64,000 nt of DNA from an uncultured Clostridia bacterium (GTDB lineage Bacteria > Bacillota > Clostridia > Christensenellales > Aristaeellaceae): NCBI GenBank assembly GCA_946414315.1, contig CAMKNZ010000003.1, positions 62,001-126,000 on the forward strand. The letters are read 5' to 3'. Positions 3,601-34,780 of the stretch are shown here, in pieces. A program made the translations under genes and the position numbers. How positions within the stretch are numbered: the stretch's first letter is position 1; every line of letters begins with the position of its first letter. Below the pieces are notes generated by a model, which saw only the letters and a program-made list of their open reading frames with translations, made no database searches and was not told where the DNA came from.

Positions 3601-3915
3601 TCACCTGAAATCAAACAATGCAATCAATGTGTCGGATATGTCCAGATATTCAGTCAGGACTAAGAATCCCAGTTTCGAAAACCTCCTCACGTTCAGGTCC
3701 ACATGGCGTACATGTTCGCAGGCAATCAGCCCTTTGATTTCTCCCGACGAGGAAGGAATGCAGATTGGGAGATGGACGGCATTCGGAGATATATTGTTCA
3801 GAATCGGACAAACAATAGCCTCCCCGATCTCGTTGAAATGATCGTTGCTTACGACAATTACCGGCCAGTTGATTCCACTGACGCGGAGAATACTTCCCTG
3901 TTCCGCCCTGAGCAT
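3601..3915 (-). CDS. mazF: MazF/PemK family endoribonuclease toxin
   Basis: A 104-residue protein matching the PemK/MazF SH3-like barrel: GSILRVSGINWPVIVVSND near the N-terminus and GEAIVCPILN, the strand preceding the RNA-binding groove. MazF toxins cleave mRNA at short specific sequences and are held inactive by the partner antitoxin. I start it at the ATG sharing one base with the antitoxin stop (TAATG), because GAGGTG sits 5 nt upstream; a GTG 6 nt earlier would leave almost no spacing. The arginine-rich loop usual after the first strand is shortened, so activity is not certain. Confidence 0.82.
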   Translation of the reverse strand: MLRAEQGSILRVSGINWPVIVVSNDHFNEIGEAIVCPILNNISPNAVHLPICIPSSSGEIKGLIACEHVRHVDLNVRRFSKLGFLVLTEYLDISDTLIALFDFR

Positions 3916-4157
3916 TACCACACCTCATTTCCCTGAGGTTCGCCCCAGTCCAGTTCCCCGATTCCGCTCAGTTCACATCCGGATTCCCGGATGCGTTCTT
4001 CCAGGGTTTTATGCCGGAAAGAAGGATATAGTACAATCTTCCCGTTTTCGACTTTTATATCCAATGTGTCGTTCACAGAGATTCCCGCTTCCTGCAGGAT
4101 CGTTTTCGGAAAACGGATCCCCTGGCTGTTTCCCCACTCTTTCACCTGAACTTCCAT
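3915..4157 (-). CDS. mazE: MazE/AbrB-type antitoxin
   Basis: An 80-residue protein with an N-terminal swapped-hairpin AbrB/MazE DNA-binding domain (MEVQVKEWGNSQGIRFPKTI, then NDTLDIKVENGKIVLYP). Its C-terminal acidic tail (CELSGIGELDWGEPQGNEVW) is the kind of segment that wraps the MazF groove. The ATG at 4157 follows AAGGTG; an upstream in-frame extension runs through the tRNA-linked repeat and is not coding. It overlaps mazF by one base, so toxin and antitoxin are translationally coupled. MazEF operons are usually autorepressed by the complex. Confidence 0.88.
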   Translation of the reverse strand: MEVQVKEWGNSQGIRFPKTILQEAGISVNDTLDIKVENGKIVLYPSFRHKTLEERIRESGCELSGIGELDWGEPQGNEVW

Positions 4158-4208
4158 AGCCGGCACCTTCTTTCTGTTGTTTATACATAGTATATACCGA
4201 TAAGAAAA

Positions 4209-4340
4209 GAGCGTCAAGGGTTCGAACTCCTGTTCCGCAATCTCAATCTTCGCATTGCTCGCTTGGAGCGCTTCGCACTGCTCGTTTCGATTGACTCGCT
4301 CACCTCGTTTTCGCCTTCGGCAAATGCCCCACTGGGGCAC
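4209..4340 (-). repeat. tRNA-linked structured element, copy 1, ending in a tRNA 3'-end remnant
   Basis: Read on the minus strand downstream of tRNA-Ala(GGC): hairpin 1 (TGCCCC-AGT-GGGGCA, 4339-4325), hairpin 2 (TTTGCC-GAA-GGCGAA, 4324-4310), then GAGTCAATCGAA, a GAA-rich spacer and GAGATTGCGGAACAGG. It finishes in a decayed tRNA T-arm/acceptor (CAGGAGTTCGAA at 4232-4221, with degenerate acceptor to 4209). The same order of hairpins and end motif occurs twice near tRNA-Ala(CGC) at 34226-34706. No ORF is credible here. Confidence 0.6.
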
Positions 4341-4413
4341 CACTCGGATTGCTCCCCCCTCCACTGCCACTGGCAGTGTTTTGATCGGGAAACCAAAGCT
4401 GCTTACGCAGCAC

Positions 4414-4449
4414 AAAAAAGCGGATCACCGTGAAGGTGATCCGTTTTTT
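4414..4449 (-). terminator. Terminator of tRNA-Ala(GGC)
   Basis: The stem CGGATCACC / GGTGATCCG (4421-4429 with 4435-4443) is flanked by an A-run and a T-run, so it can work on both strands. It starts directly after the tRNA 3' end. Confidence 0.85.
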
Positions 4450-4450
4450 G

Positions 4451-4523
4451 TGGAGCATAGGAGATTCGAACTCCTGACCCCAACACTGCCAGTGTTGTGC
4501 GCTACCAACTGCGCTAATGCCCC
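4451..4523 (-). tRNA. tRNA-Ala(GGC)
   Basis: A 73-nt complete cloverleaf: acceptor GGGGCAT/ATGCTCC, D-stem GCGC/GCGC, anticodon stem CAACA/TGTTG with loop CTGGCAG (anticodon GGC), and T-stem AGGAG/CTCCT with TTCGAAT. The G3:U70 wobble pair, the alanine identity element, is present. CCA is not encoded. It reads GCC/GCU codons. Its own promoter lies upstream at 4535-4563 and a strong terminator follows. Confidence 0.97.
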
Positions 4524-34204: not shown

Positions 34205-34223
34205 GGGGCATTAGCACAGTTGG
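34205..34223 (+). repeat. Orphan tRNA-Ala 5'-end fragment
   Basis: The 19 bases GGGGCATTAGCACAGTTGG are identical to the first 19 bases of tRNA-Ala(CGC) at 34368, then diverge. This fragment sits where the tRNA promoter would place the tRNA itself. Confidence 0.8.
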
Positions 34224-34225
34224 GG

Positions 34226-34361
34226 AACGAAGGAAGCGTTAGCCCGGTGGGCTATCCTGCGAAGCAGGAAGCGCCCTGAGTGAGTCAATCGAAGCAAGCA
34301 ACAGGCTGAAGCGACAGCAAGGCCGGTTGCGCCGACTGAGATTGCGGAAGCGCCAGTAATT
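34226..34361 (+). repeat. tRNA-linked structured element, copy 2 (element A)
   Basis: AACGAAGGAAGCG is followed by hairpin 1 AGCCC-GGT-GGGCT (34241-34253), hairpin 2 CCTGC-GAA-GCAGG (34256-34268), then CTGAGTGAGTCAATCGAAG and CTGAGATTGCGGAAG (34336-34350). It lies between the tRNA 5' fragment and the intact tRNA and, from the promoter position, is inside the primary transcript. Copy 3 shares its first 60 nt with about a dozen changes, and its hairpin 2 has T:A replaced by G:C. Confidence 0.6.
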
Positions 34362-34367
34362 GAATAT

Positions 34368-34440
34368 GGGGCATTAGCACAGTTGGTAGCGCGCGACATT
34401 CGCATTGTCGAGGTCAGGGGTTCGACTCCCCTATGCTCCA
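34368..34440 (+). tRNA. tRNA-Ala(CGC)
   Basis: A 73-nt cloverleaf: acceptor GGGGCAT/ATGCTCC with G3:U70, anticodon stem CGACA/TGTCG, loop TTCGCAT (anticodon CGC), and T-stem AGGGG/CCCCT with TTCGACT. The D-stem GCAC/GCGC has an A12xC23 mismatch. CCA is not encoded. It would read GCG. A terminator follows immediately. Confidence 0.92.
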
Positions 34441-34441
34441 C

Positions 34442-34475
34442 AAAAAATGGCAGGACATCATGTCCTGCCATATTT
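34442..34475. terminator. Terminator of tRNA-Ala(CGC)
   Basis: TGGCAGGACAT-C-ATGTCCTGCCA (34448-34470) with flanking A- and T-runs. It is almost the same palindrome as at 32540 and 37936. Confidence 0.85.
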
Positions 34476-34536
34476 TTGTGCTCGCACGGGGCGTCTCACC
34501 CCCTGACCGAAGACAATGCGAAGCATTGGAGAGGCA

Positions 34537-34706
34537 AACGAAGGAAGCGTCAGCCCAGTGGGCTGTCCGGCAAAGCCGGAAGCGATCTGAGTTTGTTAGC
34601 GCGAAAGGGAGAATGAAGCCCGCTCCAAGGGCTTCAGGCGACCATTGAGCGAACGGAACAGGGGTTCGAAGCGCCGCGAGACGGGGTTCGACTCTCCTAT
34701 GCTCCA
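34537..34706 (+). repeat. tRNA-linked structured element, copy 3 (element B), ending in a tRNA 3'-end fragment
   Basis: AACGAAGGAAGCG, hairpin 1 AGCCC-AGT-GGGCT (34552-34564), hairpin 2 CCGGC-AAA-GCCGG (34567-34579), then ATTGAGCGAACGGAACAGGG and GTTCGAA. It closes with a 25-nt copy of the tRNA T-arm plus acceptor (34682-34706) that differs from tRNA-Ala(CGC) at two bases. It lies beyond the tRNA terminator. Confidence 0.6.
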
Positions 34707-34780
34707 CTACATTACGAAGTGTCGAACTCGGATGTATTGGCAGCCGGTTCGCACTCCGGATCAGTTTAAAGGATGATCGT

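Follow-up and report, generated by a model that had tools for sequence, protein, structure and literature searches.

A probable new family of short palindromic DNA repeats at tRNA genes and other hairpin-forming sites in one family of Clostridia

The 64,000-nucleotide stretch of DNA analysed here (the window) comes from a draft genome of 2.24 Mb (54 contigs, 60% complete) and carries three similar, hairpin-rich elements beside its two tRNA-Ala genes, raising the question of whether these are RNAs tied to tRNA-Ala or elements of another kind. The first-pass annotation favoured a selected RNA structure, found only at the tRNA-Ala genes and of a family that it did not recognise. Our analysis points, with a probability of roughly 0.6, to a new family of short, non-autonomous, palindromic mobile DNA repeats. 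All three elements lie essentially where that annotation had placed them, both by sequence and by covariance-model bounds (Table 1), and the two hairpins that it described are present, as are their loops; hairpin 2 shows the T:A to G:C change. The copies are akin beyond chance; a DNA search with E2 matches another copy in the same genome at E = 5e-24. A CGGAA motif listed for the end of the elements is present and variable, being mostly CGGA and also CGGG, CGGT, or CGGC. Against Rfam (4227 models) the window gives only its two tRNAs at gathering score; at E ≤ 1 there is no match over the E1 and E2 cores and three bases of a sub-threshold match over the third.

Table 1. Features in and around the elements of the window
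Feature	Position	Strand	Basis or remark
Element E1, core	34225-34351	+	covariance model R1, 117.2 bits; among the six model sequences
Element E2, core	34536-34660	+	covariance model R1, 118.5 bits; among the six model sequences
Element at tRNA-Ala(GGC), core	4231-4354	-	covariance model R1, 131.2 bits; itself a model sequence
tRNA-Ala(CGC), intact	34368-34441	+	ARAGORN; Rfam 61 bits
tRNA-Ala(GGC), intact	4450-4523	-	ARAGORN
Direct copy of tRNA-Ala 5' end, 19 nt	34205-34223	+	identical to 34368-34386
Terminator-like hairpin T1	34441-34480	+	read from sequence
X', inverted copy of part of the tRNA 3' half	34481-34535	+	antisense score
Tight hairpin CAATGC-GAA-GCATTG, end of X'	34514-34528		
Direct copies of tRNA-Ala 3' end	34659-34707	+	two pieces, 34659-34669 and 34683-34707
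Terminator-like hairpin and inverted tRNA copy	4376-4448	-	between tRNA-Ala(GGC) and its element
Candidate direct copy of tRNA-Ala(GGC) T-arm	4218-4232	-	past the element; from sequence
MazE/MazF-like (PemK) toxin-antitoxin pair	3604-4157	-	begins just downstream of the tRNA-Ala(GGC) element

The order after both tRNA-Ala genes is the same: an intact tRNA, a terminator-like hairpin, an inverted part-copy of the tRNA, the core, and a direct part-copy of the tRNA 3' end. Each inverted copy is closest to its own tRNA, X' having an antisense score of 31 against 18 for the best other tRNA (locus L053) and the copy at tRNA-Ala(GGC) a score of 26 against 19 (L050). The longer direct copy past E2 covers 25 nt with one mismatch, its longest exact run being 12 nt. 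The piece past the other element is probably a copy of the T-arm, with a score that is not specific (20, versus 21 for another tRNA). E1 lies upstream of tRNA-Ala(CGC) and follows the 19-nt copy of that tRNA's 5' end, as if it had been inserted in a tRNA D-loop; past it the tRNA sequence resumes for a short AGCGC, and a longer resumption, AGCGCACAACACTG, occurs past the element at tRNA-Ala(GGC) in genome G063 (locus L135). Folded alone, E1 has a z-score of -1.50, and the regions of E2 (34470-34712) and of the element at tRNA-Ala(GGC) (4200-4415) have z-scores of -2.77 and -2.38. The stretch upstream of tRNA-Ala(CGC) has two stem-like parts that are alike in several genomes of the genus (L139, L147, L149, L151, and L159), most of these loci sharing the pattern ACCTC..GGAC..TAAAGTCGAGG..CCCCGG..CCGGG..CCATA. 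Short pseudo-tRNA-like units upstream correspond to the first ~22 nt of tRNA-Ala(CGC), some of them in tandem (L150, L152-L155, L140, and L162).

The unit is about 123-125 nt long and consists of a stem, P1, holding two tight and nearly always perfect hairpins, H1 and H2, followed by a stem, P2, with a third hairpin. In E1, P1 surrounds AGCCC-GGT-GGGCT (H1) and TCCTGC-GAA-GCAGGA (H2), and the P2 domain follows. Judged from its length and hairpins, the unit contains no gene, being too short and hairpin-rich. When six copies from the window's genome were aligned by sequence, the 130 columns gave a consensus of 36 pairs, and two-sided changes were present at 22. Among 118 matches (109 distinct), 31 of the 36 pairs show two-sided changes, 92.0% of 3876 pair cells pair (32.8-38.4% when slid by 1-3 columns), and two-sided change cells number 851 against a shuffled mean of 280. 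This larger alignment leans towards the structure because it was fitted to it, but the six-copy alignment, made by sequence only, gives the same picture. The covariation reported by the first-pass annotation is real, and it is far stronger than could be seen from three copies.

Pairing reaches 98.9% of cells in H1 and 99.0% in H2. The H1 loop, among 140 copies, is AGT in 94, GGT in 18, TGT in 9, and GGC in 1, with 18 uncalled. The H2 loop is GAA in 65 of 140 (19 uncalled), and in 32 of these it lies within GCGAAGC, a heptamer that is exceptionally stable in DNA. Element types akin to this one, but with only one hairpin in P1, occur at L137 and, in L118 and L123, upstream of the copies there; they occupy the same kind of sites and have a TTGCGGA-like end, and the family looks wider than the covariance model.

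Outside the window, the claim that the elements are found only at tRNA-Ala genes fails. In the same genome, the E2 search finds further copies past tRNA-Ser(CGA) and in the purF-purM interval. An additional copy, past tRNA-Met, lies in the surroundings of the genome's 26 detected tRNAs, which were read for 340 bases downstream of 9 plus-strand tRNAs and for 60 or fewer at the other 17. A genome-wide search with the six-copy covariance model, which covers regions beyond these surroundings, gives 27 matches at E ≤ 1. Nine of these exceed 100 bits, and some at the weak end (24-40 bits) may be due to chance. The same kind of search in related genomes yields many further matches, all in one bacterial family: at E ≤ 0.01, 33 of 37 genomes of the genus match and none of 24 from other families (61 genomes, the window's own included). 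Copies per genus genome range from 0 to at least 55 at this threshold, with the best 58 candidates per genome scored. The single-contig, 3.39-Mb genome G035 has 60 matches at E ≤ 1e-4, of which 27 reach at least 88 bits.

A second covariance model, built from the 118 matches, was applied to 347 genomes from the order with strict filters and the best 10 candidates per genome. It matches 13 of them, all in one family (7 of 7 from the genus and 6 of 21 from other genera, or 13 of 28 within the family), and none of the 319 other genomes of the order, 314 of these being counted as a sum and their other-family status being inferred from list order. Exact-pattern scans of 84,980 species genomes and of viral contigs, sets that may omit near relatives, returned no match. 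Among the matches listed from BLAST of the locus against plasmids and phages (20 of 53 and 20 of 309 records), only the tRNA part matches. Among the matches listed from CC-licensed PMC papers, there is no description of the family.

The tRNAs that adjoin elements are Ala(GGC), Ala(CGC), Met, Ser, Asn, Arg, Pro, and Val, and 5S rRNA genes are neighbours at L117, L125, and L057, while the element of L108 lies past a 5S-tRNA-Asn pair. Matches without tRNA linkage, which the first-pass annotation had named as speaking against its reading, are found in part: 19 of the 27 strong G035 copies lie more than 400 bp from any tRNA, while the other 8, at 6 tRNA sites, compare with 0.23 expected within that distance. 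Based on this strong enrichment, we regard the tRNA link as a target preference and not as the identity of the element. No tRNA was found at other-genus loci, of which 20 of 28 were scanned, and copies there often lie inside other palindromes, as in CTTAAGGG-element-CCCTTAAG. Palindromic targets across the family include tRNA arms, terminators, 5S ends, REP-like hairpins, and other copies of the element. An exact target consensus suggested by the tRNA copies (GG before the element and T after it) is not claimed, as non-tRNA sites do not show it cleanly. Near neighbouring G035 copies there is a Gut-1 RNA (RF01706, 52 bits, cut-off 50; L119 2497-2583 and L122 2819-2905, both minus strand), and these overlapping loci contain one and the same Gut-1 gene. 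In another genus (G358; L304 and L322-L326), the elements are surrounded by further tight hairpin repeats such as GGGCGATC-GCA-GATCGCCC, which suggests a wider set of hairpin repeats.

Matching loci in related genomes are both filled and empty. At tRNA-Ala(CGC), an empty site in G010 (L157) and a site in G065 filled by a variant element (L137) have both flanks in common; the filled site adds a terminator, an inverted copy, and the element, 28 nt of the tRNA 3' end are repeated, and the old terminator then follows. At L137 the terminator of the empty site lies only past the element, and in the window T1 appears to have come in with the insertion. The empty counterpart of E2 is L151 (G011), in which the tRNA 3' end runs into sequence like that of the window from 34711 onwards. 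The tRNA 3'-end repeat is exact over 28 nt at L137, 24 nt at the tRNA-Ser of the window's genome, and 30 nt at L115 (Val), and at E2 it is the 25-nt copy already described. In the purF-purM interval, 30 loci include sites that are filled (by several subfamilies), empty, and scarred, and the flanking genes are identified by Pfam as AIR synthase-like (purM) and glutamine-amidotransferase-like (purF). A 245-bp unit at L106 in G035 is exactly absent from G022, without target duplication. At a REP-like palindrome, G022 has an element and G035 has none, the junctions differing on both sides.

The footprint is thus not uniform, with no duplication at the clean site L106 versus 24-30 nt at four tRNA sites, and where filled and empty sites differ, an old copy may in some cases have been deleted. 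Inverted repeats across the element occur in 19 of 140 copies versus 12 of 1390 control pairings, and direct repeats in 30 of 140 versus 2% in controls, some of both kinds stemming from tandem arrays and terminators. Targets with dyad symmetry (tRNA arms, the 5S end, the REP-like palindrome, and other elements) are observed, the inverted repeats showing such symmetry for a minority of the copies. The first-pass annotation had also named a known mobile or repeat family as an outcome that would count against it, and in their behaviour, with filled and empty sites, the elements do resemble mobile repeats.

These footprints bear on the possibility that the elements do not transpose and owe their spread solely to hairpins, at which replication switches template and segments are duplicated. 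Around terminator and element, target copies alternate between direct and inverted, tandem copies occur (L109/L127, L113/L120, and L237), and the arms change in concert, all of which would fit. However, the sites are unlinked and dispersed across whole genomes in several genera, so that local switching does not explain the spread, and we regard this explanation as unlikely.

Slightly harder to sustain is a tRNA-linked RNA, as the first-pass annotation had it, here taken to have a regulatory or processing role in the tRNA transcript, such as termination or maturation of the 3' end. Besides strong covariation and enrichment at tRNA genes, this proposal draws on the tRNA copies, which bring a terminator and a sequence antisense to their own tRNA: among 26 nearest-tRNA rows, the antisense copy scores best against its own tRNA in 18, in 13 of these by at least 5 points, and the direct copy does so in 17. 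Against it, the strong G035 copies mostly lie away from tRNAs, the same tRNA has no element in several relatives, and orientation is mixed, with 19 of 31 element-tRNA rows in the same direction as the tRNA and 12 opposite (where related genomes contribute rows at matching sites, these are not independent). Even at one tRNA-Ser both orientations occur, the element lying in the direction of the tRNA at L052 and against it at L129 and L188.

The covariation itself lacks the excess of G.U pairs that an RNA would lead one to expect. Selection on RNA only should tolerate G.U more than A.C. Of 1273 cells in H1 and H2, 1251 are Watson-Crick, 9 G.T, 7 A.C, and 6 others, while the acceptor and T stems of 45 tRNAs at the same loci (46 were taken and one was rejected) give 496 Watson-Crick, 37 G.U, 6 A.C, and 1 other among 540. 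A smaller control of 16 tRNAs (172 Watson-Crick, 14 G.U, and 5 A.C) was set aside for its biased filter. G.U is ten times rarer in H1 and H2 than in tRNA stems (P = 9e-13), and the G.U:A.C ratio also differs (P = 0.03); the ratios in P1 and P2, 12:5 and 9:6, are less clear. Because G.U is as rare as A.C in H1 and H2, DNA palindromes are favoured over RNA-only selection.

On a tree built without the H1 and H2 columns, two-sided Watson-Crick changes number 164, a count that a poorly resolved tree may inflate, against 18 one-sided departures and 3 changes of other kinds. Below 3% divergence there are only one-sided changes (5, versus 0 two-sided), so the two-sided changes need not have been simultaneous. 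The element strand folds better than its complement in 123 of 135 cases with RNA parameters, a point for the tRNA-linked RNA, and in 126 of 135 with DNA parameters; as both sets favour the element strand, folding energies do not separate RNA from DNA. What stands of the earlier proposal is a real, structured, covarying family, and what does not is the step from covariation by itself to a selected RNA. Strong covariation alone is no proof of a functional RNA: two-sided changes abound here, yet G.U and A.C pairs are equally rare, the pattern that perfect DNA palindromes would give. We rate an RNA acting with the tRNA as quite improbable.

Very unlikely in our estimate is a structured mRNA 3'-UTR element, involved in stability or termination and multiplied by duplication. 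Among 66 loci, 45 elements lie on the strand of the gene on their 5' side (P = 0.004), a modest bias that an RNA role could also give, and one third lie on the other strand. We quote only this bias from the gene-context count because the ORF picker was crude, 31 of 75 elements overlapping a picked ORF and many of these ORFs probably being spurious. At purF, the last codons and the stop come from the element, which related genomes lack.

As for a mobilising enzyme, none was identified among Y1 transposase and reverse transcriptase candidates. Y1 transposases were found in 28 of 45 genomes of the genus, and a REP-type repeat moved by a Y1 (RAYT/IS200) transposase, the least probable explanation of all, has in its favour intergenic, high-copy hairpin repeats and the RAYT-like genes of five high-copy genomes (G001, G002, G008, G022, and G035), but seven RAYT loci read by eye bear different repeats, the 215 kb around 20 RAYT loci have 5 element matches at E ≤ 0.01, about background by estimate, and a Y1 match is absent from the element-rich G184 and G376 (at least 10 matches each, 95% complete) and G031 (15 matches, 91% complete). 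The RAYT-like genes of the genus have their own flanking palindromes, for example of the GTGACAGTTGGTCTGTCCC type (L262, L263, L265, L267, L268, L272, and L274). Mobility by reverse transcriptase, as in group II introns or retrons, is not supported, as there is no RVT_1 match in these five high-copy genomes, which are near-complete (95-99%, with 48 to at least 55 element matches at E ≤ 0.01); three element-rich drafts, G005, G026, and G028 (35, 24, and 21 element matches), do have one. The ORFs between paired copies in G262 (L313) include no evident transposase by eye.

We return, then, to short, non-autonomous, palindromic mobile DNA repeats. The family is dispersed and high-copy, is present or absent at matching sites, and occurs in either orientation, often at palindromic sites. 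A trans-acting enzyme, of the host or of a mobile element, would recognise the hairpins as single-stranded or extruded DNA and would place new copies at hairpin-forming DNA. A tRNA gene hit in this way would keep its tRNA intact and would be followed in turn by a new terminator, an inverted copy from the tRNA, the element, and 24-30 nt repeated from the tRNA 3' end. The arms would stay complementary at the DNA level through palindrome recognition, hairpin-templated (template-switch) copying, or both, which would account for the striking covariation; an effect on tRNA termination, if any, would be secondary. More speculatively, and with a low probability, folded single-stranded DNA may move into DNA hairpins and copy its target on entry, leaving inverted and direct target copies, a new terminator, and the struck tRNA gene whole, with arms rewritten in concert by hairpin-templated copying. 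If so, target-copying entry would be a mode of transposition without reverse transcriptase and, in some genomes, without Y1 transposase.

The elements are best filed as a new family of short, non-autonomous palindromic repeats with an unusual tRNA-copying footprint, and not as a tRNA-Ala RNA. This adds a large repeat family, outside Rfam, from little-studied bacteria and accounts for the odd sequence past several tRNA genes in these genomes, and the natural filled/empty pairs are material for finding the mobilising enzyme.

Among known systems, the template switching proposed as a source of two-sided changes, in which multi-base changes keep RNA hairpin stems perfect (PMC8794818), shares with our family multi-base two-sided changes in stems that stay perfect. 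However, it is a mutation mechanism and not an element family, and loop inversion, one possible footprint of it, is not seen among the 122 of 140 H1 loops that were called. Rickettsia palindromic elements are described as 105-146-bp palindromic repeats that form long stem-loops, often fused in frame into proteins, with two in structural RNA genes (tmRNA and M1 RNA; PMC2229807), whereas the new family mostly adjoins intact RNA genes. The closest in behaviour are REPs and the Yersinia palindromic sequence YPAL/RU-2, likened here by description. REPs, of the GTAG and CGTC superfamilies and some nested in palindromes (PMC3733652), are likewise palindromic and high-copy, but they are 20-40 bp long with a GTAG or CGTC tag, whereas our unit has ~125 nt, three hairpins, and no RAYT partner found; by eye, no conserved tag of either kind is seen at the hairpin foot in the element copies. 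YPAL/RU-2 is described as a 168-bp mobile repeat, not A+T rich, with internal inverted repeats, target duplications of 3-26 bp, targets that span or adjoin dyad symmetry, and empty and filled sites (PMC2229807). Both families are thus short (<200 bp) and repeated, code for no protein, and have filled and empty sites and dyad-symmetry targets. They differ in that the new family belongs to other organisms, has three hairpins with changing arm sequence, and, at tRNA genes, leaves repeats of 24-30 nt along with both direct and inverted copies of the host tRNA.
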